Shown: positions 38,135 through 52,455 of the stretch, piece after piece
Position numbering within the stretch: position 1 is the stretch's first letter
How the letters are laid out: every line of letters begins with the position of its first letter
NCBI RefSeq assembly: GCF_013752535.1
Contig: NZ_CP058348.1
Location: 496,001-560,000, forward strand
Reading direction: 5' to 3'
Origin: Bdellovibrio sp. KM01
GTDB lineage: Bacteria; Bdellovibrionota; Bdellovibrionia; Bdellovibrionales; Bdellovibrionaceae
DNA length: 64,000 bases
The notes under the pieces: model-generated
What the model saw: the letters and a program-made list of their open reading frames with translations, nothing else
What the model was told of the DNA's origin: nothing
Database searches by the model: none
Translations under genes and position numbers: made by a program

Positions 38135-38962
38135 ATGGGCTTAAGAATTGCGACAAATACAGCGTCTATCGCTGCTCAGCGTGTATTGTCCACGCAACAA
38201 AAAAGAACTGAGCACTCTGCTCAAGCTCTTGCTTCAGGTTCCCGTATCGTAAATGCTGCTGACGACGCCGCAGGTTTGGCGATCTCAGAAAACTTCAAAG
38301 GACAATTAAAAGGTATTGCTGCCGCGAGAAATAACGCGAACAACGCGATTTCCTTTGCGCAAGTAGGTGAGGGTGGTCTGAATGAGATCTCCAATATCCT
38401 GATTCGTTTGCGTGAGCTAGGAGTTCAATCCGCTTCCGATACTATCGGTGAAACAGAGCGTGGATTCCTAAATAAAGAGACCCAACAACTTCTCCAAGAG
38501 GCCGATCGTATTGCCAAGACCACAGTGTTTGGTAATCGTAAACTTCTCGATGGATCTGGCGGTGAGCTGGAGTTCCAAGTCGGCGCCAATGCCGGAGATG
38601 ATAATATGATTAAAGTAACCTTCGATGCCGATGCTTCTGCAAGTAATCTTGGTATCGACGGAATCGATATGGACTCGAAAAGTGGAGCCCGCTCTTCATT
38701 AGAAGATATCGATAAAGCTCTGGTGAAAGTCAGTGAGATGCGCGCCGGCTTCGGTGCGACCCAATCACGACTGGAATCCACAGTAAGTAACTTAGATATT
38801 TCCTACGAGAATTTGTCTGCTGCGAACTCTCGTATCCGTGACACAGATATCGCAAAAGAAACGTCAGAAATGGCCTCTGCCAACATTCTGCAAAACACAG
38901 CGGTATCGGTTCTGGCTCAAGCCAATCAGCTACCAAACGTAGCTATGAAACTAGTTGGCTAA
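38135..38962 (+). CDS. fliC: Flagellin 1
   Basis: 275 residues, a short flagellin with only D0/D1 domains. N-terminal 'GLRIATNTASIAAQRVLSTQ' and 'LASGSRIVNAADDAAGLAIS', C-terminal 'LSAANSRIRDTDIAKETSEM' and 'VSVLAQANQLP' are the canonical helices. It polymerises into the filament after export through the flagellar apparatus. GAGGAGG precedes the ATG. It is about 50% identical by eye to the second flagellin at 40741, and the two flank a transposase gene. Bdellovibrio carries several flagellins; which numbered one this is cannot be told here. Confidence 0.95.
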   Translation: MGLRIATNTASIAAQRVLSTQQKRTEHSAQALASGSRIVNAADDAAGLAISENFKGQLKGIAAARNNANNAISFAQVGEGGLNEISNILIRLRELGVQSASDTIGETERGFLNKETQQLLQEADRIAKTTVFGNRKLLDGSGGELEFQVGANAGDDNMIKVTFDADASASNLGIDGIDMDSKSGARSSLEDIDKALVKVSEMRAGFGATQSRLESTVSNLDISYENLSAANSRIRDTDIAKETSEMASANILQNTAVSVLAQANQLPNVAMKLVG

Positions 38963-39076: not shown

Positions 39077-39116
39077 CCCACGGGGCCCTCTAGAGGGTCT
39101 CGTGGGATTTTGCGTT
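39077..39116 (+). terminator. Terminator after flagellin 1
   Basis: A long stem from CCCACG (39077) to CGTGGG (39106) with inner CCCTC/GAGGG, followed by ATTTTGCGTTTT. Confidence 0.75.
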
Positions 39117-39150
39117 TTGGGGTTCGGGCCGGTCATTGCCCTGCACGGCG

Positions 39151-39272
39151 GGCGAATGAAAAAGGCTCGATTGCTGCGTTGTCGGCGTCGAACTTGCTCT
39201 CCGGCGTACTTGGAGTACGCCTACGTGGCAGCTCGTCACCTCCGCCTTGCACTCGAACCTTTTTGATTCGCC
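39151..39272. repeat. Imperfect palindromic dispersed repeat, copy 2
   Basis: The ends are GGCGAATGAAAAAGGCTCGA and TCGAACCTTTTTGATTCGCC, 18 of 20 positions complementary. The centre has CTTGGAGTACGCCT. Order and wording of internal blocks match 1290-1419, but the outermost bases differ (GGCGAAT versus GCAGGCTGTT). It lies 99 bases from the 3' end of the RAYT gene, between it and flagellin 1. Confidence 0.8.
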
Positions 39273-39316
39273 TTTGCTAGATTCGAACTTCTTTTGGCTT
39301 GCGCCTTCGTCGCTCG

Positions 39317-39368
39317 CTTCCTTCCTTCCTTCCTTCCTTCCTTCCTTCCTTCCTTCCTTCCTTCCTTC
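39317..39368. repeat. (CTTC)13 tetranucleotide microsatellite
   Basis: Thirteen perfect CTTC units (52 bases) end two bases before the stop codon of the RAYT gene (minus strand: GAAG repeats directly downstream of its TGA). Such tracts change length by slippage. It is in non-coding sequence as I read it. Confidence 0.95.
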
Positions 39369-39370
39369 AA

Positions 39371-39943
39371 TCAGTTGTTCCAGAGTTCTATTAGTTGTTC
39401 TTGGGTTAGGCCTCTTAGGCGGGTTTTTGAGTAGGGGCGGCCGTTGGCTTCGCATTCGTTTAGTTGGATGTAGTTTCGTACTATTTGATAGGGTTTGAAG
39501 CCCTTTACGATCCGGGTGAATGGACGATATTTCCAGATCTTTTCTCTTCTGTCTTTTTTACCTTCGTTCGTGGTTTCGGGGGTATCGGTCATGTTCTGAG
39601 CGAATTGTCCTGGCAGCACCCGGAGGAAGCTTTGGAGTTTGGAGCGGCGGCTTCCACGGATTAATAGATGAACATGGTCGTTTTGAATCGAAAACTGCTC
39701 GATCTTAATAAAGAACTTCAGGGAATATCTTTTAATTAGAGCTGTCATCAGTTTGAAAGCATATCGATTGCGGAGGCCGCCACGGACTGTCGATTTGTTG
39801 ATCTTTAGTACTAAATGAATCGGATCCTTTGTGGATAGGGGGCGCGATCCTCTTCCTTTTGATGTCTTTCGTAAGGTGCCCCCGTGACAGTAGCGATGTT
39901 GCCAAGGAACTGTGAGTGATAGAAAAGATGGTTGTTTCATCAT
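39371..39943 (-). CDS. REP-associated tyrosine transposase (RAYT, TnpA-REP type)
   Basis: About 190 residues from the ATG at 39943 (MMKQPSFLS); the open frame to 40003 is less likely. The HUH motif is 'FSIQNDHVHLLIRGSRRS' and the catalytic Tyr region is 'YQIVRNYIQLNE'. Y1 transposases of this single-copy, domesticated class cleave single-stranded REP palindromes. The 21-base sequence around its start codon recurs at 40113-40133, and a palindromic repeat lies downstream. It sits between two flagellin genes in the opposite direction. Confidence 0.88.
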   Translation of the reverse strand: MMKQPSFLSLTVPWQHRYCHGGTLRKTSKGRGSRPLSTKDPIHLVLKINKSTVRGGLRNRYAFKLMTALIKRYSLKFFIKIEQFSIQNDHVHLLIRGSRRSKLQSFLRVLPGQFAQNMTDTPETTNEGKKDRREKIWKYRPFTRIVKGFKPYQIVRNYIQLNECEANGRPYSKTRLRGLTQEQLIELWNN

Positions 39944-40133
39944 GACCGATACCCCCAGGGATGAAAGGGTAGGATGCAATTCTTGGGAGAGGATCAAATG
40001 CACTGTCTTTTATAGAAATCATTGCGTGGTCCGAGTGACGGAAAGTTCCACGAACAGCATATTATGACGACATTATTGCTTTCAGATCTAAATTCTCGTT
40101 CATTCTGACAAAGTTTCGTCATGACCGGTACCC
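39934..40133. repeat. Pair of 21-base direct repeats around the RAYT start
   Basis: GTTTCATCATGACCGATACCC (39934-39954, 21 bases with first base shared by the coding start region) and the same with two changes at 40113-40133, 179 bases apart. The first copy spans the transposase start codon. The stretch 40134-40440 has no gene or feature that I can support. Confidence 0.7.
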
Positions 40134-40740: not shown

Positions 40741-41574
40741 ATGGGAATGAGAATTTCAACTAATATCGCAGCGGTAAATGCACAAAGAACTCTACAAGGT
40801 TCTCAACGTGTTATCGGTAAATCCATGGAGCAATTGTCTTCTGGATCGCGCATCAACAAAGCTGCAGATGATGCTGCCGGCTTGGCAATCTCTGAAGGTA
40901 TGAAGTCGCAAATCAGATCTTACAGCCAAGCACAACGAAATGCGAATGATGGTATCTCAATGGTGCAAACTGCTGAGGGTGGTTTGTCTGAAGTTTCCAA
41001 CATCTTAACTCGTATGCGTGAGTTGGGAGTACAAGCTTCTTCTGATACTATCGGTGATACAGAGCGTGGCTTCCTTGATAAAGAGGTTCAACAATTGAAA
41101 GCTGAGTCTCAACGTATCACTCAATCTACTAAATTTGGTACTACTAAACTACTTGATGGTTCTGGCGACAAGTATGACTTCCAAGTAGGTATCGGTAATG
41201 ATGACTTTGCGGACCGTATCTCCTTCAACGCAGGTGAGACAGACGCAACAACAGCTTCTCTAGGTATTGACGGTTTCGATTTCAGCTCTAAAGCGGGTGC
41301 TCAAGAAGCTCTTGAGAAAATCGACAGCGCTCAAACTAAAGTGAACGGTTATCGCGCAAATCTTGGTGCCCTTCAAAATCGTCTGACATCAACTGTCGAC
41401 AACTTGGGTGTGCAACATGAGAACATTTCTGCCGCGAACTCTCGTATCCGTGATACAGACATCGCAGCAGCTTCAGCTGACCAAGCAAAAAACCAAGTGT
41501 TGCTACAAGCTAACACGAGTGTTCTTGCTCAGGCGAACCAAATGCCGGGCGCAGCATTGAAACTAATTGGCTAA
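40741..41574 (+). CDS. fliC: Flagellin 2
   Basis: 277 residues from ATG 40741. An upstream in-frame ATG at 40570 would add 57 residues unlike any flagellin and would start at the promoter, so I reject it. Conserved ends: 'GMRISTNIAAVNAQRTLQGS', 'SSGSRINKAADDAAGLAISE', 'ISAANSRIRDTDIAAASADQ' and 'TSVLAQANQMPGAALKLIG'. Like flagellin 1 it lacks the variable D2/D3 domains. Filament subunit; own sigma-28-like promoter. Confidence 0.95.
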   Translation: MGMRISTNIAAVNAQRTLQGSQRVIGKSMEQLSSGSRINKAADDAAGLAISEGMKSQIRSYSQAQRNANDGISMVQTAEGGLSEVSNILTRMRELGVQASSDTIGDTERGFLDKEVQQLKAESQRITQSTKFGTTKLLDGSGDKYDFQVGIGNDDFADRISFNAGETDATTASLGIDGFDFSSKAGAQEALEKIDSAQTKVNGYRANLGALQNRLTSTVDNLGVQHENISAANSRIRDTDIAAASADQAKNQVLLQANTSVLAQANQMPGAALKLIG

Positions 41575-41738: not shown

Positions 41739-42113
41739 ATGAATATCAAAGGATTGATTCCCACCATACAGCCAAGCGATGTGAAGTCGATAGACCGAAC
41801 GGGCCGGGCGATTCAATCCGACAGTGCCCACGATCGAGACGCCAACGGGCAAGAATCCTATCAACAGCAACAACAAGAACAGAAACCGCCGATGTCAGAG
41901 GAGCAACTTGAAGCTTCGATGGAACATCTGCGTAAACTTCCTGCTTTCAAGGAGCACCGATGGACGGTGGAACTTGAAGATATTGGCGGGGAGAATTTCG
42001 TTATGGTCAGAGACAATCTTGGTACTTTGATTCGTCGTATTCCCGAAGCAGAATTGTGGACTTTACCAAGTGATGATTCTCCTCGTGGCCAACTCCTAAA
42101 ACGTTCCGCTTAA
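41739..42113 (+). CDS. flaG: FlaG-family flagellar protein
   Basis: 124 residues. The N-terminal 70 are polar and Gln-rich (SYQQQQQEQKPPMSEEQLE). The C-terminal domain 'HRWTVELEDIGGENFVMVRD' and 'LIRRIPEAELWTLP' has the FlaG pattern (V.....v.v.D..Tg.viRqIP.). FlaG proteins affect filament length, and the gene usually precedes fliD, as here. No ribosome site is evident. Confidence 0.85.
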   Translation: MNIKGLIPTIQPSDVKSIDRTGRAIQSDSAHDRDANGQESYQQQQQEQKPPMSEEQLEASMEHLRKLPAFKEHRWTVELEDIGGENFVMVRDNLGTLIRRIPEAELWTLPSDDSPRGQLLKRSA

Positions 42114-42322: not shown

Positions 42323-43693
42323 ATGGCAGGAATACGAATTACAGGCATGGCCTCTGGGCTACCACCAAATATCGTCGAGCAGCTGATGGAAGCTGAGCGT
42401 ATTCCTGTGAAGCAGATGGAAACTAAGAAGACCGAGAAGGATGAAAAGCTTAAGCTTGTAAAAGATCTCGAGAGCAAGGTTTTGGATATTAATAAAAACC
42501 TTTCCGATCTGACGAATGTGCGCGGTTTTGCGGATAAGAAATTTACTTCAAGTGATACGTCCGTTGTGGACGGTCAACTTGATCCGAATAACGCGGTACC
42601 AGGTGAGTACTCGGTTGAAGTAGTTTCGCTTGCGGAAAAGCCGGCAGCTATTTCCAACGGCTTTCCTGATAAAAATGAAACGCAAATTGGTACGGGATAT
42701 ATAAAGTTTGAAACGCCCGAAGGCACTAAGGAAGTTTACATCACAGGGAAGAATTCGACTCTGGAGGGTGCCGCGAATCAGATTAATAACGCTGACGTGG
42801 GTTTGAAAGCTCAGGTTCTTGAGGATCGTAAAGATAAAGAGAACCCGTTTAAACTTTTGGTTTCAGGGATGGCGACTGGTGATGACCACCAGGTGACATT
42901 CCCAAAAATCTATCTCTTGGATGGCGATCAGGACATGTACTTTGATCAGTCCCGCGCTTCTAAGAATGCGAAAGTGAAAGTTGACGGCTTTGAAATCGAG
43001 CTTCCGGAGAATAAAGCCAAAGATTTGATTCCAGGCGTGGTGCTGGATTTGAAATCTGCAGCTCCAGGTAAAACGATTCACATGACGGTGAAGGAAAACC
43101 TGGAAGCCATTGGTGGCAAAGTAAAAGGTTTCGTTGATGCCTATAATGCGGCTTTGGGTTTTATCCAAAAGCAGCATCAGCTCCAGGGCGGTGAAAAAGG
43201 CGGAAATCCTAAGCTGGGGCCTCTGGGTGGTGATGGACTATTAAGGACGATTGAAAGTTCGTTGCGTAGTGCGATTTTGAATCCGGTGCAAGGGGTGGAA
43301 TCACCTATTCGTCAGATCAATGAGATGGGCATCACGTTTAATCGAAACGGGATGCTGGAGTTGAACCAGGATAAGTTCAACAAAGTACTGAATTCAAATC
43401 CGGTGGGCGTTGCTGCATTTTTCCGCGGCGACGGCTTTAAAACGGGTTTTGCCAATGTGATTAAGCAGACCGTTCAAAGTTTAACGAACGGTGAGTACGG
43501 TGGCTTGGCCAACCGTAAAAGAGGACTCGAGTCGCAGATCAAACAAATTGATCAGCGTATCGATAACAAAGAACGACAGTTAGAGAAAAAGGAAGATGGG
43601 CTTCGTCAGAAGTTTGCCAACCTGGAAACTAAGATGTCGGAAATGCAGGCTCAGCAGGCGAAGTTCGCAGCGATGGCCCGCCAGGGTGGATAG
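42323..43693 (+). CDS. fliD: Flagellar filament capping protein FliD
   Basis: 456 residues. The N-terminal 'GIRITGMASGLPPNIVEQLM' with 'EAERIPVKQMETKKTEKDEK' is the FliD_N pattern; the C-terminal region 'FVDAYNAALGFIQKQHQLQG', 'INEMGITFNRNGMLELNQDK' and the final coiled coil (about 395-455) match FliD_C. It caps the filament and guides flagellin folding. It follows flaG and precedes fliS, the standard order. Confidence 0.94.
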   Translation: MAGIRITGMASGLPPNIVEQLMEAERIPVKQMETKKTEKDEKLKLVKDLESKVLDINKNLSDLTNVRGFADKKFTSSDTSVVDGQLDPNNAVPGEYSVEVVSLAEKPAAISNGFPDKNETQIGTGYIKFETPEGTKEVYITGKNSTLEGAANQINNADVGLKAQVLEDRKDKENPFKLLVSGMATGDDHQVTFPKIYLLDGDQDMYFDQSRASKNAKVKVDGFEIELPENKAKDLIPGVVLDLKSAAPGKTIHMTVKENLEAIGGKVKGFVDAYNAALGFIQKQHQLQGGEKGGNPKLGPLGGDGLLRTIESSLRSAILNPVQGVESPIRQINEMGITFNRNGMLELNQDKFNKVLNSNPVGVAAFFRGDGFKTGFANVIKQTVQSLTNGEYGGLANRKRGLESQIKQIDQRIDNKERQLEKKEDGLRQKFANLETKMSEMQAQQAKFAAMARQGG

Positions 43694-43746: not shown

Positions 43747-44151
43747 ATGAACAAGAACGCGTATCAGAAATACAAACAGACTTCAGTGCAAAGTGCCAGC
43801 AAGGAAAAGATCCTTTTGATGCTTTATGAGGGTGCTATCAAGTTTACCAAACTTGCCGTCAAAGCTATTGAAGAGAAAAAGATCGCGGATCGTGGGCAGA
43901 ATATCGGCAGAGCCTTCGATATCATCATGGAATTAAACAATACTCTTGATCATAAAGTCGGCGGCGACGTGGCAAACCAGCTGGAACAACTTTATATGTT
44001 CATGATGGAACAATATACCAAAGCGAACATCAGCGGAGACGCAGCACCACTTCATGCGAATTTGAAGTTGCTAAATACTTTGTATGATGGCTGGGTGCAA
44101 GCCGTAGAAAAACTCAAAAAAGAATCAGACGACGGAAAGAAAGCGGGTTAA
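43747..44151 (+). CDS. fliS: Flagellin-specific chaperone FliS
   Basis: About 134 residues from ATG 43747 (AGAGGAAACG upstream); the frame from 43711 lacks a site. 'YQKYKQTSVQSASKEKILLM' and 'LYEGAIKFTKLAVKAIEEKK' are the family N-terminal block. It is an all-helical chaperone that binds the flagellin C-terminus in the cytoplasm. Confidence 0.94.
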   Translation: MNKNAYQKYKQTSVQSASKEKILLMLYEGAIKFTKLAVKAIEEKKIADRGQNIGRAFDIIMELNNTLDHKVGGDVANQLEQLYMFMMEQYTKANISGDAAPLHANLKLLNTLYDGWVQAVEKLKKESDDGKKAG

Positions 44152-44167
44152 TACCATGGAGGGTAAC

Positions 44168-44593
44168 GTGACCAGAATCATCAGCCTGTTGAACGAAAAA
44201 AATCATTACCTCGAAAAGTTCTATTCATTGAACGAGGTGGAACTTGCGAACTTCGCGCAAGGTTTGTTCGACAATTTGCAGAGCTTTTATCAGACGCGTG
44301 AGAAAATTCTGGATGTTCTTAAGTATGTAGACTCGCAAATCGACAGAGCTCAGAACGAAATGAGCGCTGATACTGTTATGGTGCAGAGCGATCGCCAGCA
44401 GATCAAAGAAGCTTTAACGATTAAGGACGAATACGTCTCTCGCATTATCGAGCAAGATATCCAAGTGTTGGCTTGCATCGAGATGGCAAAAAATTCCATC
44501 ATCCGCGAGTTGCAGGATGTTCGTCGCAACCGTAAAGCAATTGGTGGCTATAAATCCAAGATCTTCACCCAGCGTTTGGACGAAGAAGCCTAG
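44168..44593 (+). CDS. FlgN/FliT-like flagellar export chaperone (tentative)
   Basis: About 141 residues, all helical with long coiled-coil stretches (EVELANFAQGLFDNLQSFYQ; EMSADTVMVQSDRQQIKEAL). GTG 44168 is preferred because GGAGGG at 44159-44164 is well spaced; ATG 44156 is possible. Size, helicity and position directly after fliS fit a FliT/FlgN-type chaperone; sequence alone does not prove it. Confidence 0.7.
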   Translation: MTRIISLLNEKNHYLEKFYSLNEVELANFAQGLFDNLQSFYQTREKILDVLKYVDSQIDRAQNEMSADTVMVQSDRQQIKEALTIKDEYVSRIIEQDIQVLACIEMAKNSIIRELQDVRRNRKAIGGYKSKIFTQRLDEEA

Positions 44594-44737: not shown

Positions 44738-45793
44738 ATGCAGATGTTGGAAAATCAGTTCGTTCAAAAGTCCAGTGAAAATACCGAAGTGAATACTTCA
44801 GTTGAGAACTTTCAGGAAAGCTCTGGAAGAGTCTATTTCGATTCTGTGCAAGCACTCGCTGACTTTGAATCAGAAACCACAAATAACAAAACACAAATGA
44901 ATACCGACCCCCGTGTTTCCAAGTATCTGCAAAATGCAGATGTGCTTAGCAAACATGGTGAGTACAACCTTGCCCTGAATCTGTTGCGCCAAGCATGTAA
45001 CATCGATTCAAAAAATTCTGCGACACTGAGTATGTTGTCTCGTTGTCTTGAAAAAATCGGAAAGCATGATGAAGCCCTGGTCGCATTGAATGCCTGGAAT
45101 AAGGTGGACTATGGCTTTGAAAGCCTGGCTTGGTTGGCTCACGCTCTGTATAGAATGGGCCGTGATGAACAAGCTTTGGAAAAATACTTTGAAGCATTGT
45201 CAGTGTTGACTGAGGAAGATGATCAGCTTTTCGAAGTATATAAAAACATGGGTAATATCTATGTTCGTCAGGGCGACTTCGACGGCGCCGAGGAATACTA
45301 CAACAAAGCTTATACTATTAATACAACATCCGATGTGTTGTTGGTGAATTTCGGAACATTGGAAGTGCAACGCGGGGACTTTGATAAATCTTTGTACTGC
45401 TTCCGCAAAGCTGTTGAAATCAATCCTCAGAATGACAAAGCGTGGGTAGGCTTAGCGATGGTTCATCACCAATTCGGTGACTCAGAACTGGCTTGGGCAA
45501 ATATCGACGCCGCTCTGGATATCAATAAGAAAAATCGTACAGCGGTTCACTTGGCTGCCAACTGGGGTCTGCGCGATCGCCAATTGCAAAAGGCCATCGA
45601 AGCTTTGGAAGAATATTTGGCTCAAGTAGAGCAAGATGAAGATATGTCTTTGGTTTTAATTAATTTGTTCTGCACGGCAAGCCAAATGGATCAAGCATTG
45701 CTCGAGATCGAACGTGTTCTTTTGTGGAACCCCGATCACCGCGAAGTTAGAGATCTTAAAAAGAAAATCACACCCTCAGTAAAGGCAGCATAA
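44738..45793 (+). CDS. TPR-repeat protein
   Basis: 351 residues. After a Glu/Thr-rich N-terminus, six or seven tetratricopeptide repeats run from about residue 65: for example 'LSKHGEYNLALNLLRQACNI', 'LEKIGKHDEALVALNAWNKV', 'VRQGDFDGAEEYYNKAYTIN' and 'VQRGDFDKSLYCFRKAVEIN'. TPR proteins scaffold complexes; no signal peptide, so cytoplasmic. GGAGGAG precedes the ATG. The next gene begins 1 base after its stop, linking it to the Maf-like protein and the glycosyltransferases. Confidence 0.9.
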   Translation: MQMLENQFVQKSSENTEVNTSVENFQESSGRVYFDSVQALADFESETTNNKTQMNTDPRVSKYLQNADVLSKHGEYNLALNLLRQACNIDSKNSATLSMLSRCLEKIGKHDEALVALNAWNKVDYGFESLAWLAHALYRMGRDEQALEKYFEALSVLTEEDDQLFEVYKNMGNIYVRQGDFDGAEEYYNKAYTINTTSDVLLVNFGTLEVQRGDFDKSLYCFRKAVEINPQNDKAWVGLAMVHHQFGDSELAWANIDAALDINKKNRTAVHLAANWGLRDRQLQKAIEALEEYLAQVEQDEDMSLVLINLFCTASQMDQALLEIERVLLWNPDHREVRDLKKKITPSVKAA

Positions 45794-45794
45794 A

Positions 45795-46406
45795 ATGTCT
45801 ATGATCACTTTCTCAGAAAACCATGAGTCGTCCCTTATTTCTTTCGAGGCGGGTACGCCGCTTGCGAATATCACTCAACCTCGTGAGGAAGCTTTGAAGT
45901 GGGCTTACTCTTTGGGGCCTATTCCTTCTTCTCATGTTGTGGTGATCGGTTTGGGTTCAGGCTTTCATATTGAAGCCTTGGCGGACTTGGATCAGGACGT
46001 GCAAATCACAGTGGTTGATTCCCGTGCCTCATTGATTCCAGTTTTCAGATCTCAATTTCCTGAATTAGCAGAGCGCGTGCAAATCGTGATCGCTGATAAT
46101 GTTCAGGAATTGATGAAAAATGATATTTATGCAGACGTGGTTGCGACACGCGCTTACGTGGTTTCTTTCAGAGAATCTTGGGGCGAGCAGATGGATCTGT
46201 TCTCCGAGTTCTTTGGTCACTTGACGGGGCGTACGGTTGAAGCCGTGAAATACCACCTTCAAGATCTGCAAATGAACATGAAGTCTTTGTACTTCCAAAA
46301 CACAACTCTTCTTTCGATCAAGGATATCTTGCCGGTAGTTGAGGGGTCCCAGGTAGCAGAAGAAAAAAAGCAAATCTTCCGTATGCTGGGAGAATTGGTA
46401 AAATAG
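45795..46406 (+). CDS. Rossmann-fold protein resembling Maf flagellin-modification N-domain
   Basis: 203 residues. 'SSHVVVIGLGSGFHIEALAD' is a nucleotide- or SAM-type glycine loop, preceded by 'TQPREEALKWAYSL' and followed by 'ITVVDSRASLIPVFRSQFPE'. This order resembles the N-terminal domain of motility-associated (Maf) glycosyltransferases ('P.kEA..w......vvv.GlG.GyHi..L'). A methyltransferase is the other possibility. The conserved glycosyltransferase (MptE-like) domain of full-length Maf is absent. It sits between the TPR gene and the first GT9 gene with 1-base gaps. Confidence 0.65.
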   Translation: MSMITFSENHESSLISFEAGTPLANITQPREEALKWAYSLGPIPSSHVVVIGLGSGFHIEALADLDQDVQITVVDSRASLIPVFRSQFPELAERVQIVIADNVQELMKNDIYADVVATRAYVVSFRESWGEQMDLFSEFFGHLTGRTVEAVKYHLQDLQMNMKSLYFQNTTLLSIKDILPVVEGSQVAEEKKQIFRMLGELVK

Positions 46407-46407
46407 A

Positions 46408-47982
46408 ATGAAGATACTGGTCGTCTCGCTTTTACGTCTGGGAGATATTATTCAGCAGCAACCTCTTTTAAAGGCGTTGCGTGAAAAGAATCCTCAGGCG
46501 CAAATCCATTTGTTAATCAATCGTCAGTTCTCTCACGTAGAGGGATTGCTGACTGGTTTAGTTGATAAGTATCACTTTTTTGATCGAGACTTGTTACAAC
46601 GTGGCCTGGGCGAGGCGTCTTTCAATATCTTGTGGTCTCATCACCAGTTGGATCAATTGGTGCAGACTTTAAATGCCGAAAACTATCAGCAGGTTTTAAA
46701 CTTCACGCATAATAAGCTCAGTGCTTATTTGTTGGGGGCCTTGCAAGTACCGATGAAAAAAGGCCTTCACCATTCTGAAGGTAAATTCCAAGGATTGGAA
46801 AATCCTTGGCTTCGCTATTTCAATGATCGTTTTTCGGGAGTGCAGCCGTCCTTGTTCCATTATGTGGAGCTTTTAGGAAAGTCCTTTGACTTGCCTGTGC
46901 AAAAAACCGCGGCCATGCCAGCAGCAAAATCCAAACAGGTTCTGTTTCAATGTCTGACAAGTGATACGAAAAAGAACTGGGGATTGAACAACTTCAAGAA
47001 GCTTAAAGAGACCATCGAATCTTCCCTGGTAGACTATAAAGTGAAGGTTCTTTGCGCTCCCTTTGAAAAAGAATCTCTTAAGGCATATTTTGCAGACTCT
47101 GATTTGATCGCTTGCGATTTGATGGGAGCCCGGGAAGTGCTTAAGCAGTCTTGCCTTTTGGTGACTGGTGATACCAGCATCAAGCATTTGGCATCCCAAT
47201 GGGGCGTGCCAACCGTTGAGATCGTTTTGGGAAGCAGTGACTGGACAAAAACCGCTGCTTATTCTGTGGCGACAGAAATATTGAGTGCGCAGGTACCGTG
47301 TGCACCATGTTCGCATTCTCAGGCTTGTTCGCAAAAATCCCAAACTTGTGCGGAACAGATCACTGTGGATCAGGTTTTTGCGGCAGTTTGGGATAAACTA
47401 AGCAAAAAGACTTCGGTATCTACGGTTTCGATTCGCGATATTGAAAAAATATCGTGGTCCCTGCAGCTTGATGGCGGCTCACAGTCTCAAGTTTTGAGCT
47501 ATGCCAGAACTGCTTTGCAATTCTCTGAAACATTCTCCAAAGCAAATTTGAGCCAGGTATTGGTGGAGGCGCGCCGGTTGCAAACTCAATACGACACTTG
47601 GTTGCAGGCTTTGGAATCGTCTTTCCCATCCCGTAAGGAAATTGCGGCAAAGACTGTATTGAAAAGCCAGGATATCGGCGAATTTATCCTGACGGCTCAA
47701 GATATTGTTAAATCAAAAAAAGATGTGGCTGGGTATTTCCAGTCGGTCGTCGAAAATCTGATGACTCGCTTTTCCAGCACGTTGCAATTTCATGAGAAAA
47801 TGCAGACAGCTCTTGCGGAAGTTCGCGAACTTCTGCAGTCGCGAGGTCAGTTCATTCACTCTTTAGAAATAGTTCTCAAGGAAGGGGCCTATTATGCAGC
47901 AGGAATTGGACAATTATCTATCGATGGCTTTGAAGAGGCTGGAAGAAGCTTACAAAGAGATCGTGAAGACGCAGCCATATAA
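46408..47982 (+). CDS. Glycosyltransferase family 9 protein (heptosyltransferase-like) with helical C-terminal extension
   Basis: 524 residues. Residues 1-345 are a GT9 (GT-B) enzyme: 'KILVVSLLRLGDIIQQQPLL', 'HLLINRQFSHV', 'LLVTGDTSIKHLASQWGVPT' (donor-site block) and a Cys-rich 'VPCAPCSHSQACSQKSQTC' loop often seen in GT9 proteins. Residues 346-524 are helical and unlike LPS heptosyltransferases. GT9 enzymes transfer heptose or related sugars; some of this fold act on proteins. Position after fliS and the TPR/Maf-like genes suggests flagellin or another flagellar protein as acceptor; this is inference. Confidence 0.85.
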   Translation: MKILVVSLLRLGDIIQQQPLLKALREKNPQAQIHLLINRQFSHVEGLLTGLVDKYHFFDRDLLQRGLGEASFNILWSHHQLDQLVQTLNAENYQQVLNFTHNKLSAYLLGALQVPMKKGLHHSEGKFQGLENPWLRYFNDRFSGVQPSLFHYVELLGKSFDLPVQKTAAMPAAKSKQVLFQCLTSDTKKNWGLNNFKKLKETIESSLVDYKVKVLCAPFEKESLKAYFADSDLIACDLMGAREVLKQSCLLVTGDTSIKHLASQWGVPTVEIVLGSSDWTKTAAYSVATEILSAQVPCAPCSHSQACSQKSQTCAEQITVDQVFAAVWDKLSKKTSVSTVSIRDIEKISWSLQLDGGSQSQVLSYARTALQFSETFSKANLSQVLVEARRLQTQYDTWLQALESSFPSRKEIAAKTVLKSQDIGEFILTAQDIVKSKKDVAGYFQSVVENLMTRFSSTLQFHEKMQTALAEVRELLQSRGQFIHSLEIVLKEGAYYAAGIGQLSIDGFEEAGRSLQRDREDAAI

Positions 47983-48067
47983 CCAAGAAGCTGAAACAAT
48001 TAAACTCGTTGCAGAACTAGCGAAGGAACAGATTAAAGATGAAAATTCTCATTCAGCAACTCGCTAG
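47894..48067 (+). CDS. Small helical protein between the two GT9 genes
   Basis: A 57-residue ORF from ATG 47894, preceded by AAGGAAGGGG about 6 bases upstream. It starts 'MQQELDNYLSMALKRLEEAY' and ends SATR. Charge and spacing suggest one long amphipathic helix or helical hairpin. It overlaps the 3' end of the first GT9 gene by 89 bases and the 5' end of the second by 29, which is the arrangement expected of a coupled gene, and its strong ribosome site would otherwise be unexplained. The function is unknown; a subunit of the glycosyltransferase pair is possible. Confidence 0.7.
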   Translation: MQQELDNYLSMALKRLEEAYKEIVKTQPYNQEAETIKLVAELAKEQIKDENSHSATR

Positions 48068-49499
48068 ATTAGGTGATATCTATATGTCTTGGCCGGCGGT
48101 TCGCGCGGTTCGCCGCATGTATCCTGATGCCGAGATTCATTTTTTGACTCGTCCACGTTTTGAAGGTGCAGTTGAGGGCTTGACGGCTATCGATAAGCAT
48201 CTGACTTTGCCAAGCGGGCATATTCTGATGCCGCTGGTAAATGAAAATGTAAACTTGGAAGAATCTCTGAATCGCATGGAAGAGTTTGTCGAACAAGTTC
48301 GTGCGGAAAACTATGATCAGATTATCAATCTGACGTTTTCACCATTTTCGAGCTATTTGACTCATGCTTTAACGATGCCACACACGACGGTGCTGGGCTA
48401 TACGCGCTTCAGGGACGGTTTTTTCTGTGCGGCAGATGAGGTCAGTGCATATTTCTATGCGCAAGTGGGAATCAATAAACCGAATCGCGTGCACATCGCT
48501 GATATCTTTGCGTCGATGATCGGTACAGAATACACCGAGCAAGACTGGGAAGCGCCTGAAATGCCAGAATTGAATTTTGATTTGCCTCAGCTGTATTTAA
48601 CGGTGCACGTGGGTGCGAGTGAGAAACACAAAGCCCTGACTCCGGATGCTTGGGGCCGAGCTATTGACTACTTCAATCGTCGTTATCAGGGGATGCCTAT
48701 CGTTTTGATCGGTGCTCCAAATGAAGTTGAAATCGCGAATGAAATTATTGCGGCCGCTCCAAATGCAGCGATCACCAACTTGGTTGGCAAAACGCGCATG
48801 AATGAACTGTTCACAGTTCTTAAGCGCTCTGAATTGCTGATCGGGTGCGACAGTGCTCCGATTCACATGGCTTCTCTAACGGATACTCCGACATTGAATA
48901 TCAGTATCGGAAATGTGAATTTCTGGGAAACAGGTCCTAAAGCGACTTTGGGTTTAATTTACCGAGTTGAGGAAGGTCAGGATGTCGCTCCAGAGCGCAT
49001 CGGTGAAATCATCGCTCAGCTGTTGGAAGGAAATGCAGATCCAGAACTGATCATGCGCACGGGCGGCCTTGCAAGTTATACCAAGGTTGAGTCGGCTGAA
49101 AAAGAGTTTGCCTGGAATTTAGTTCAAGCCCTGTATTTGGGCGGTCAATTCCCTGTGGCGGAACGTATTGAAATCATTGAAGGTGCCATGAAATTGGATG
49201 AAATCAATGACTTCATGATGAGCCAGTTTGCTTTGATTCATGAAAAAGGTGTGGAAGCCGTCGCTCCCTTTATTGACGGCGGCGAAGATGTTATTAAGTC
49301 AATTAGCCGGATCGTACCGGAGTTGCGTCCTATGATTGACTGGTATCATGCGGAGAAAATCCGTGTGGCACCAGGCACGCAAGAGGAGATCGTAGCAGCA
49401 ACTTTGAGTGTTCATGAGCGTTTTAAACGCCATCTTCGTGTTTATGTTCCTCGTGATGAAAAAGTCACGACAGTGGAGGCCAAAGATGGAACGCTATAA
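48039..49499 (+). CDS. Second glycosyltransferase family 9 protein
   Basis: 486 residues. 'KILIQQLARLGDIYMSWPAV', 'HFLTRPRFEGAVEGL', 'QLYLTVHVGASEKHKALTPD' and 'LLIGCDSAPIHMASLTDTPT' follow the GT9 order; 'S-A-P-x-H-x-A' is the typical donor-pocket motif. The C-terminal 130 residues are an extra helical domain. The start overlaps the 57-residue gene; the end overlaps the next gene by 14 bases. It is similar in layout to the first GT9 protein, indicating an old duplication. Acceptor unknown. Confidence 0.87.
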   Translation: MKILIQQLARLGDIYMSWPAVRAVRRMYPDAEIHFLTRPRFEGAVEGLTAIDKHLTLPSGHILMPLVNENVNLEESLNRMEEFVEQVRAENYDQIINLTFSPFSSYLTHALTMPHTTVLGYTRFRDGFFCAADEVSAYFYAQVGINKPNRVHIADIFASMIGTEYTEQDWEAPEMPELNFDLPQLYLTVHVGASEKHKALTPDAWGRAIDYFNRRYQGMPIVLIGAPNEVEIANEIIAAAPNAAITNLVGKTRMNELFTVLKRSELLIGCDSAPIHMASLTDTPTLNISIGNVNFWETGPKATLGLIYRVEEGQDVAPERIGEIIAQLLEGNADPELIMRTGGLASYTKVESAEKEFAWNLVQALYLGGQFPVAERIEIIEGAMKLDEINDFMMSQFALIHEKGVEAVAPFIDGGEDVIKSISRIVPELRPMIDWYHAEKIRVAPGTQEEIVAATLSVHERFKRHLRVYVPRDEKVTTVEAKDGTL

Positions 49500-50169
49500 A
49501 GTATCCGGCGAAGATCTTCGCAATTTTTATCAAGGTGACACGAATCTTTCCAAAGTTTTTGCCGACATCGAAAACGATCTTCGTGATACGAACGCTGTCG
49601 TTTGCAGATTTATCGTAAATGGCATGGAAATTAAGGAATCCGACGAAGCACGCTTTGGTTCGGTTTCCCTAAATGATGTGGAAACACTTGAGTACATGAC
49701 GGAAAACAGCAATGACCTGGTGCTGGATGTTTTGCGGGCATGGATTGATTCTCTGCCAGAGCTTATGGGAAAAACTGAAAACTTATCCAAGCGTATGCGC
49801 GCTCAAGGTTTGAGTGGTTTACTAAAACCAATTCATGATCTGGTATCAAATTGTGAATATTTGATCGATAGCGTGATGTCTTTGAAAGTTTTGGTGGGCG
49901 ACCGTTACCTTGTGGCAAGTCCAGTTAATTGGGCTATCGCAGAAGAGCAAAGTAAAAAGACCGTTACCGAAGCACTTGGTGCAATGGAAAATAAGGATTT
50001 TGTTCTTTTAGCGGATGTCCTGGAGTATGATTTAAACAATGTTCTGCAAATGTGGAAAGAACACTTGCAGTACTTGGAGAAGGCGCTCAATGGGGACATC
50101 AACGGATCAAACTTCAAATCCGAACAAGATAGATCCAATCCTGTGGGTTGGAAACGTATCGCCAATTAG
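49486..50169 (+). CDS. Helical protein of the flagellar-glycosyltransferase operon
   Basis: About 227 residues from ATG 49486 (GGAGG at 49475-49479). 'MERYKVSGEDLRNFYQGD' and the following region suggest a small beta domain, then long helices (LVLDVLRAWIDSLPELMG; LADVLEYDLNNVLQMWKEHL). No known motif seen. It overlaps both neighbours, so it is co-expressed with the GT9 and kinase genes. The function is unknown. Confidence 0.78.
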   Translation: MERYKVSGEDLRNFYQGDTNLSKVFADIENDLRDTNAVVCRFIVNGMEIKESDEARFGSVSLNDVETLEYMTENSNDLVLDVLRAWIDSLPELMGKTENLSKRMRAQGLSGLLKPIHDLVSNCEYLIDSVMSLKVLVGDRYLVASPVNWAIAEEQSKKTVTEALGAMENKDFVLLADVLEYDLNNVLQMWKEHLQYLEKALNGDINGSNFKSEQDRSNPVGWKRIAN

Positions 50170-52090
50170 GCTGCCGCAATTCTTTCCGTTTCAAAAACGG
50201 GAAGTCGAGATCGTCTTACGGGCTTCTTTTCAGGAAGCCCGTTCGCTTTTACAAAATCAAAAATTTTCCTCGATCTTAGTCCAGGACGAAGGTGGTTCCG
50301 AGGCTTTTGATCTTTTGGTTCAAGCTCGTCATCTGCAACCGATGGCACCGCGCTTTTATATTTCCAATGAATTGAATGAAGAAAAGGTTCGTCAGGGAAT
50401 CAATCAAGCCCAAGTCTATCGCTTTATCCGCTGGCCGCTGGCTGAAAGAGAAATCTGGCAGCAGCTTGAAGACGCCCTGGAAAAACACTCCACTTATCTT
50501 TCGCGATCTCTTTTGTTAAGAGAATCCTCATCACAGAATAAAGAGCTTGAAGCCTTGACGCATTCCTTGGAAGGCTTGGTTGATGAACGCACTCAATTTA
50601 TCGAGATGTCCCATAAAGAGGAAACCGATAAACTGAACCGGGAACGAAATCTGGTGCGGCTCATTAAAGATCTGGCGAATCAAAACTCCTTTGAAGATGT
50701 TTTGGGAATCATTCGTAAGGAGCTGCGTAAGTTTCATAAGATCGGGGACCCTATTCTGGTGTATCGCACCGACAATGCAAAGACTCACTTTATCAGTTTT
50801 CAATTGGGCACGATGACTCAGTCAGAGTCCTCCACTCATTTTGAGTTCCCCAAAAATGCACAAGTGCCGTCAGCAGATTTGATTCGTCACCTGGCCAATC
50901 ATTTTGGTCGTCCCTTTGCAAAAACCTATGTCGTTCCGTTGGAGCTGCGTTTGACGAACCATCTGATGGGTGGAAACGGTGAAGCGATCCTTTGTGTTGA
51001 AAACTCCCTGAATGATAAAGAAATGCCGCCTTTTGTAGAATTTATGACCGATCGCATGCGCCCCTTAGGGATGACGTTGGATCGTGTTCTTTTGGACAGT
51101 CAGCTTTCAGCGTTTTCGTATCGCTGGGAAAAAACTTTCGACGGCATGAGAGATCCCATCGCTATCATGGACATGGATCACAGTGTGATTCGCGCCAATA
51201 AGAAATTCTCGGATAGATTTCCAGACAAGCGCCAGGCGATTGAAGGTTCTCCGGCATCTCAGGCTTTGGCAGATGGGCAGCCGCACGTAGGACAAATTCA
51301 AGTGGACAATCGTATTTACCAGGTTCACAGCTATCCCGTTGTTTTGGATAACGGTGGTAAGGCCACAAATGTTGTAAATCAATACGTAGATATCACTCAG
51401 TCCCGCGAGCTATATTTGCGCATGTTACAGAACGAGAAAATGGGTGCCATCGGGATGCTGGCCGGGAATATTGCTCATGAGTTGAATAATCCCCTGACAG
51501 GTCTGCGTTCATTGACGCAAGTTTTGTTGCAGGAAGCAGACCAGAAAACCAATCTCTATTCAGATTTGGTTGAAATCGAAAAGGCTGCTGCTCGTTCGCA
51601 ACGTATTATTAAAAACCTACTGGATTTTTCAAAAGGCGAAGATCAACCCGCAGAGGATATTTCTATCGACGAAATAGTCGAAAGAACTCTCCCGATGTTG
51701 AAATCCGCTCTGCGCACCCATCGCTTGGAAGTGACACTGCAAACTGTGGATAAAACTGTGCACGTTGAGCCACACTTGATTCAACAAGTGGTGTTCAATC
51801 TGGTTAATAATGCGTGTCAGGCGATGAAGGATCCCGGCCGTCTTAAAATCAACTCCTGTCATTCGGGAAATCAGGTGGTTTTGGAAATTGAGGACACGGG
51901 GCCAGGGGTGGCAGAGGATATTCAAAAGCGTATTTTTGAGCCCTTCTTCACGACAAAAAAAGAAGGACATGGAACCGGTCTTGGGTTAAGTATGTCTAAG
52001 TCGGTCATCGAGAAATTTGGGGGCAGCATCACGTTAAATTCGGTGCAACCTAACGGGGCCCGATTCGTGATTACATTGCCGTGTAAGTAA
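50090..52090 (+). CDS. Sensor histidine kinase with degenerate N-terminal receiver-like domain
   Basis: About 666 residues from ATG 50090 (AGAAGG upstream), starting inside the previous gene. Residues 1-130 resemble a receiver fold but lack its Asp residues ('ILWVGNVSPIRLPQF', 'SSILVQDEGGSEAFDLLV'). A coiled coil and GAF-like region follow, then a PAS-like domain (DPIAIMDMDHSVIRANKKF), HisKA 'LAGNIAHELNNPLTGLRSLT' and HATPase ('LVNNACQAMKD', 'DTGPGVAED', 'GTGLGLSMSKSVIEKFGG'). No membrane segments: a cytoplasmic kinase. The receiver gene follows 11 bases later. Confidence 0.9.
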   Translation: MGTSTDQTSNPNKIDPILWVGNVSPIRLPQFFPFQKREVEIVLRASFQEARSLLQNQKFSSILVQDEGGSEAFDLLVQARHLQPMAPRFYISNELNEEKVRQGINQAQVYRFIRWPLAEREIWQQLEDALEKHSTYLSRSLLLRESSSQNKELEALTHSLEGLVDERTQFIEMSHKEETDKLNRERNLVRLIKDLANQNSFEDVLGIIRKELRKFHKIGDPILVYRTDNAKTHFISFQLGTMTQSESSTHFEFPKNAQVPSADLIRHLANHFGRPFAKTYVVPLELRLTNHLMGGNGEAILCVENSLNDKEMPPFVEFMTDRMRPLGMTLDRVLLDSQLSAFSYRWEKTFDGMRDPIAIMDMDHSVIRANKKFSDRFPDKRQAIEGSPASQALADGQPHVGQIQVDNRIYQVHSYPVVLDNGGKATNVVNQYVDITQSRELYLRMLQNEKMGAIGMLAGNIAHELNNPLTGLRSLTQVLLQEADQKTNLYSDLVEIEKAAARSQRIIKNLLDFSKGEDQPAEDISIDEIVERTLPMLKSALRTHRLEVTLQTVDKTVHVEPHLIQQVVFNLVNNACQAMKDPGRLKINSCHSGNQVVLEIEDTGPGVAEDIQKRIFEPFFTTKKEGHGTGLGLSMSKSVIEKFGGSITLNSVQPNGARFVITLPCK

Positions 52091-52101
52091 GGATTTTGTT
52101 T

Positions 52102-52455
52102 GTGAAGGTACTGATTGTTGATGATGAAGCTTTGGTCCGCCGTTCTTTGTCCCGCGCTTTCCGTGCGAAAGGACATGATGTCGTTGAAGCTGAAAACGGA
52201 AACGAGGGCCTTGAGCAGTGGAAGAAGTCCACTCCGGATCTGGTATTTCTGGATGTTTTGATGCCAGGCTTGACCGGCCCAGAAGTTTTAAAGGAAATCG
52301 GCTCAGACCGTTCCGGTAAGGTGATATTAATGTCGGCTTTTGCTGGAGAACATAACATGGAAACAGCTTTGCAAATGGGAGCTGAGATGTTTGTTCCAAA
52401 ACCTTTCGAAGATATTTTTGCTGTTGTAAAAATGGCCGAGGATTTGTTGTCATGA
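52102..52455 (+). CDS. Single-domain response regulator
   Basis: About 117 residues from GTG 52102 (AAGGAT upstream). Receiver signature: VDDE near the start, phospho-acceptor in 'LVFLDVLMPGLTGPEVL', 'ILMSAF' and 'VPKPFED'. No output domain, so it acts by protein contact, probably receiving phosphate from the adjacent kinase. It shares 4 bases with rsmD. Confidence 0.92.
   Translation: MKVLIVDDEALVRRSLSRAFRAKGHDVVEAENGNEGLEQWKKSTPDLVFLDVLMPGLTGPEVLKEIGSDRSGKVILMSAFAGEHNMETALQMGAEMFVPKPFEDIFAVVKMAEDLLS

Follow-up and report, generated by a model that had tools for sequence, protein, structure and literature searches.

A conserved block of two GT9 glycosyltransferases beside the flagellin genes of Bdellovibrio sp. 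KM01, a candidate flagellin glycosylation module

Gene order, conservation and co-occurrence with flagellin

We analyzed a window of 64,000 nucleotides from Bdellovibrio sp. KM01 (contig NZ_CP058348.1, positions 496,001 to 560,000), whose 3.96-Mb genome is a single contig. Downstream of two flagellin genes and of flaG, fliD and fliS, the window carries genes for a tetratricopeptide repeat (TPR) protein, a stand-alone protein resembling the N-terminal domain of Maf (MafN), two glycosyltransferases of family GT9 (GT9a and GT9b), a 57-residue protein (P57) and a protein that we call HEL (Table 1). Together these genes form a real, deeply conserved unit, and on balance we think it probable that they serve as cytoplasmic glycosylation machinery for flagellin. 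An earlier note on this DNA had described six tightly coupled genes after flaG-fliD-fliS, and we found all six on the plus strand, one base apart or overlapping: the spacings between TPR, MafN, GT9a, P57, GT9b and HEL, in that order, are +1, +1, -89, -29 and -14 bases. A FlgN/FliT-like gene separates fliS from the TPR gene, with a gap of 144 bases before the latter.

That note had also proposed a synteny survey, which revealed the same gene order in the majority of 40 loci, drawn from nine families of the class; a few of them lack MafN-GT9a or HEL. Conservation of both order and content in most of these loci argues that the arrangement is not due to chance. The same neighborhood was seen in 70 further loci from a scan of named genomes, nearly all of them Bdellovibrionales or Bdellovibrionia, and flagellin genes adjoin the module in most Bdellovibrionia loci. 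Outside the class, the phylum holds two reduced forms, FliD-FliS-FlgN-TPR-GT9-HEL and FliD-FliS-(FlgN)-MafN-GT9-GT9-HEL-kinase, and HEL occurs in 178 of the phylum's 291 genomes. One Myxococcota metagenome-assembled genome (locus L187, 4359-11769) carries GT2-TPR, double GT4-type, GT9, MafN, HEL and FlgN-like genes beside fliS-fliD-fliC. Extra transferases clustered at flagellin are what a glycosylation function predicts; we regard the locus as a second form of the module with a fuller set of genes.

Within the module, some genes occur in pairs. Where both flanks could be seen (51 loci), 36 loci carried MafN together with GT9a and 14 carried neither, the lone exception being a diverged GT9a; every one of the 36 MafN-bearing loci had GT9a. 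Of 38 GT9b genes, 36 are accompanied by P57, which never occurs where GT9b is missing. Because it is so conserved, even at loci where it hardly overlaps GT9a, we judge from sequence that the 57-residue protein listed in the earlier note is a real gene. Several loci (L052, L073 and L078) have GT9b without MafN-GT9a, and since P57 never occurs without GT9b, the GT9b-P57 pair looks like the core of the module and MafN-GT9a like an added unit.

To relate the enzymes to the flagellum, we compared the 129 genomes of the class that have flagellin with the 15 that do not. Strong GT9b homologues, for which we chose a cut of E below 1e-30, were found in 102 of the 129 and in none of the 15. The naive hypergeometric P of about 1e-9 overstates this association, since losses are shared by descent. 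Other GT9 genes were retained in 5 of the 15 flagellin-less genomes, so the pattern is more than a loss of all heptosyltransferases, and the module's enzymes track the flagellum. Strong GT9b is missing from 27 flagellated genomes; several of these are incomplete or end at a contig edge (L101, L104, L109), and one (G067) carries TPR-MafN-GT9a-HEL-kinase as a block apart from fliD (L221). In five others the slot holds other open reading frames (ORFs) or a diverged GT9a (L103, L105, L106, L111/L112, L116).

A further 14 genomes of one genus, together with G113, are flagellated and lack the enzymes. Reading the region in seven of these 14 genomes and in G113 showed the kinase gene directly after the TPR gene, with the five-gene cassette between them gone (L102, L107, L110, L113, L114, L117-L119). 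The joint absence of MafN, GT9a, P57, GT9b and HEL indicates that these five are one functional unit, while the TPR and kinase genes are kept. We take this retention, seen at the level of gene content, as evidence that the TPR protein has a flagellar role of its own, apart from the cassette.

Some of the ORFs found in the enzyme slot were considered as candidates and set aside. Those at L105 and L103 turned out to be diverged GT9a, and the 450-residue pair at L112 and L116 matches neither GT9b nor any Pfam family. Overall, lineages without GT9b hold ORFs of 350-490 residues between the TPR and HEL or kinase genes that have no significant Pfam match (L106, 4595-5641; L112, 116-1480; L116, 10785-12137; L209, 6198-7664). 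Those of L112 and L116 are homologous to one another, and these slot ORFs could be unrecognized or decayed transferases.

The GT9 enzymes, MafN and HEL

The PF01075 profile matched GT9a with 49.4 bits and GT9b with 54.4 bits, both over the cut-off of 22. Judged over 36-40 orthologues, R10, G12, D13, K189, D255 and T256 are invariant and H260 near-invariant in GT9a, and D13, K198, D271, S272, W435 and P445 are invariant in GT9b. The residues equivalent to those of WaaC are kept in the two enzymes (D13, K189/K198, D255-T256/D271-S272), and the GT9a profile aligns with WaaC; we take Asp13 to be catalytic and the Lys and Asp-Ser/Thr to bind the donor. GT9a also has a near-invariant cluster, C298-x-P-C301...C307...C314 with H303.

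By profile, the nearest solved chains are the lipopolysaccharide (LPS) heptosyltransferases WaaC and WaaF (326-349 residues). A parallel with autotransporter heptosyltransferases, which the earlier note had drawn, proved weak, because the solved relatives found are these LPS enzymes; the chain of TibC was not among the profile matches of GT9a or GT9b up to E 0.1. The unusual helical C-terminal extensions are real by comparison with chains of WaaC/WaaF type, but only that of GT9b is constant, several GT9a orthologues of 358-382 residues lacking it. Both enzymes fall far under the cut-off of the LPS heptosyltransferase equivalog TIGR02193 (47.4 and 64.9 bits, respectively, versus 185.3), and likewise below those of the other LPS heptosyltransferase I/II/III equivalogs. 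In a tree, GT9b formed a single clade (support 100/99), and GT9a grouped with the first GT9 of the reduced MafN-GT9-GT9 form (100/98). The genome's four other GT9s lay outside both groups, on long branches that leave their exact placement unsure. To our knowledge, GT9 enzymes of known function use ADP-heptose, and the genome encodes an HldE-type heptose kinase that scores above its cut-off; the donor is therefore probably ADP-heptose.

As a single sequence, MafN matched Maf N-domain and methyltransferase models weakly and with similar scores (PF20157 15.6 bits, under the cut-off of 23.5). Across 37 family members, PF20157 matched 16 (best E 3.4e-6) and methyltransferase models 11 (7.2e-5), and a Myxococcota relative passed the PF20157 cut-off with 25.9 bits. 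An AlphaFold2 model of MafN (pLDDT 93) had as its top structural match the N-terminal part of Magnetospirillum Maf (5MU5; Z 11.4 over 144 residues, 3.5 A), the next match reaching Z 10.1. The likeness to the Maf N-domain that had been noticed in this 203-residue protein is thus upheld by family profiles and by fold. Foldseek placed methyltransferases first, which points to a fold class common to both, and we regard kinship with the Maf N-domain as moderately to well supported by profiles and model, but not certain. A published account of Maf calls its N-domain a degenerate Rossmann fold whose function is unclear (PMC11339370). We found no match to PF01973, the MptE-like catalytic domain of Maf, in the whole KM01 genome or in 140 of the 144 genomes of the class. 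None of the four matches in the class lies at the coordinates of this operon, and the two that we inspected adjoin other sugar genes.

The model of HEL (pLDDT 89) combines a small alpha+beta domain with a four-helix bundle; against the PDB it matched generic four-helix bundles only (a FAT domain at Z 13.3, designed bundles), without a telling relative. What had been called an unknown helical protein has, in this model, an alpha+beta domain besides its four helices. Its start also moves: the ATG at 49486, which gives 227 residues and matches the length in relatives, is more probable than the GTG at 49408.

Flagellin glycosylation and its alternatives

The earlier note had read these genes as a flagellin glycosylation module. 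Their tight and deep linkage to filament genes, their co-occurrence with flagellin, unlike that of other GT9s, the joint loss of the five cassette genes and the likeness of MafN to the N-domain of a flagellin glycosyltransferase speak for this reading, in which we infer flagellin as a protein acceptor, heptose as the sugar, the order of steps and the parts played by the TPR protein, P57 and HEL. The TPR protein, perhaps with MafN and HEL, would hold flagellin before export, as does the TPR half of Caulobacter FlmG. GT9b with P57 would then attach the first ADP-activated sugar, which is probably heptose taken from the ADP-heptose pool of the cell, and the MafN-GT9a pair would add a second sugar or modify a second site, after which FliS and the FlgN-like protein would carry flagellin to export. 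By analogy, such a module is best read as working like a split FlmG, with the Maf-like N-domain as adaptor and GT9 replacing the Maf catalytic domain, and as a member of neither family. We suggest more tentatively, as a possibility somewhat short of even, that this is a third kind of flagellin glycosylation besides Maf and FlmG, a phylum-wide modular O-glycosylation by two GT9s, probably heptosyltransferases, with Maf-N, TPR and HEL as separate proteins that direct them to flagellin.

Several observations weigh against glycosylation of flagellin. The operon holds no sugar-synthesis genes, nonulosonate genes included. The flagellated clade of 14 genomes and G113 without the enzymes indicates that the module is not required for the flagellum as such. 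When we compared Ser/Thr sites in flagellins of carriers (68) and non-carriers (20), the centre values were 0.142-0.149 versus 0.172-0.175, with no depletion in non-carriers; we count this comparison as neither support nor refutation. Flagellins of B. bacteriovorus (274-282 residues, about 29 kDa predicted) run at 29, 30 and 31 kDa on gels (PMC2791853), so any glycan must be small, with room for few sugars, and the masses are also compatible with none. Finally, the literature that we searched contained no report of flagellin glycosylation in Bdellovibrio.

The same enzymes might act on another exported flagellar protein, such as the FliD cap, the hook or the hook-filament junction, and not or not mainly on flagellin. 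The nearest constant neighbors of the module are indeed FliD, FliS and the FlgN-like gene; outside the class, flagellin is on the opposite strand or out of view at several loci; and the Ser/Thr comparison was negative. We nevertheless think such an acceptor unlikely, given that flagellin genes adjoin the module in most Bdellovibrionia loci and that the known Maf and FlmG systems target flagellin (PMC7591256, PMC11339370). With both kinds of acceptor taken together, glycosylation of a flagellar protein is the explanation that we favor. We would give similarly low credence to a role in making a special LPS core for the outer-membrane sheath of the flagellum, with the operon merely co-expressing the GT9s with the filament. 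Such a role would fit the closeness to WaaC and WaaF and the finding that sheath LPS of B. bacteriovorus differs from cell-body LPS (PMC7175336); that reported difference, however, concerns fatty acids and not core sugars. It fits poorly with the low equivalog scores, with the four other GT9s in the genome, and with the presence of a Maf N-domain and a TPR protein, neither of which has a known role in LPS core synthesis.

A narrower alternative concerns MafN, which could be an active S-adenosylmethionine-dependent methyltransferase on flagellin or on the transferred sugar, its likeness to Maf reflecting only a common Rossmann fold. MafN has a conserved GxGxG motif, its PDB profile matches are mostly methyltransferases, and Foldseek and many structural matches returned methyltransferases or spermidine synthases. 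Past motif I, however, MafN has no strongly conserved catalytic-looking polar residue except E200 near the C-terminus; the Maf N-domain model matched more of the family, and more strongly; and 5MU5 ranked first by structure. We therefore consider methyltransferase activity very improbable.

Set against described systems, a flagellin glycosylation module of this kind shares features with each and equals none. Like Maf of Campylobacter, Aeromonas and Magnetospirillum (5MU5), it would have a degenerate N-terminal Rossmann domain, encoded beside flagellin, and would act in the cytoplasm before export; unlike Maf, it has no central PF01973 sialyltransferase-like domain, its N-domain stands alone, and catalysis would be by GT9 enzymes of GT-B fold. 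FlmG of Caulobacter crescentus, likewise cytoplasmic, serves six flagellins; it binds flagellins through a TPR part and glycosylates them, ahead of their secretion, through a GT-B part (PMC7591256). FlmG, however, is one chain with pseudaminic acid as donor, whereas here the TPR protein and the transferases are separate genes and there are two GT9s plus MafN, P57 and HEL. TibC (PMC4358343) is a heptosyltransferase-type enzyme with a protein acceptor, but the operon encodes no autotransporter and the extensions differ; TibC is a dodecameric, iron-bound assembly, and GT9a carries the conserved Cys/His cluster described above. The module enzymes share family and catalytic residues with WaaC and WaaF, and differ in their long C-terminal extensions, their link to flagella and their absence where flagellin is absent.

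The combination of two GT9s with a stand-alone Maf-like N-domain had been suggested to be new, and we found no match to it, and no description of the module, in the literature searched; the route by which it would decorate flagellin is probably new relative to those described. The best-known cytoplasmic flagellin glycosyltransferases, Maf and FlmG, use nonulosonic acids. A phylum-wide GT9 system in predators would, if real, extend protein heptosylation beyond autotransporters, and the Maf N-domain would appear to be a separable adaptor, a point that the one Maf structure leaves unsettled. Bdellovibrio flagella are sheathed and contain up to six flagellins, arranged in blocks. Display at the surface would be an unlikely purpose for a modification that the sheath covers, which would instead suggest a function in assembling or exporting the filament. 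Comparison is already possible between relatives that carry the cassette and relatives that lack it.

Features of the surrounding DNA

Table 1. Genes of the module and its neighborhood (window positions)
Feature	Position	Strand	Basis
FliC1 flagellin, 275 aa, likely substrate	38135-38962	+	ORF; homologous flagellins at this position in relatives
FliC2 flagellin, 277 aa from MGMRIS, likely substrate	40741-41574	+	ORF; predicted 29.3 kDa; conserved neighbor
FlaG	41739-42113	+	homology and conserved position
FliD filament cap	42323-43693	+	homology; FliD_N matches at the same place in relatives
FliS flagellin chaperone	43747-44151	+	homology and conserved position
FlgN/FliT-like export chaperone	44156-44593	+	Pfam FlgN E 3.4e-4, FlgN/FliT below cut-off; conserved position
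TPR protein, 351 aa, proposed flagellin-binding part	44738-45793	+	Pfam TPR E 4.7e-26; retained in clades without the enzymes
MafN, Maf N-domain-like, stand-alone, 203 aa	45795-46406	+	PF20157 family matches; model; 5MU5 match
GT9a, GT9 glycosyltransferase with helical C-terminal extension, 524 aa	46408-47982	+	PF01075, 49.4 bits; conserved residues
P57, 57 aa, overlaps GT9a and GT9b	47894-48067	+	conserved with GT9b
GT9b, GT9 glycosyltransferase with conserved C-terminal extension, 486 aa	48039-49499	+	PF01075, 54.4 bits; invariant residues; own tree clade
HEL, alpha+beta domain and four-helix bundle, 227 aa	49486-50169	+	phylum-wide family; model pLDDT 89
Histidine kinase, closes the conserved block	50090-52090	+	HATPase_c and HisKA; conserved order; start codon
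Response regulator, after the histidine kinase	52096-52455	+	position; followed by rsmD and coaD

Of the likely locus tags in strain HD100, a full-text search recovered only that of fliS, which is bd0612 (PMC9140294). Promoter predictions were no more frequent than in shuffled sequence, and terminator predictions were slightly more frequent. In six genomes, a family of ~397-residue proteins is encoded between the FlgN-like and TPR genes (L047, 6198-7391; L049, 9713-10906; L050, 5986-7377; L052, 7671-8864; L054, 6291-7478; L056, 9624-10814). A Pfam scan of one member gave no match; the L047 member begins like a lipoprotein and contains a CIECH motif. In the window, a minus-strand ORF (39371-40003) with an HVHLLI motif lies between the genes for FliC1 and FliC2 and resembles a transposase of the type associated with repetitive extragenic palindromes (REP, Y1); the minus-strand ORF that overlaps it (39090-39455) codes for an EGRK repeat.

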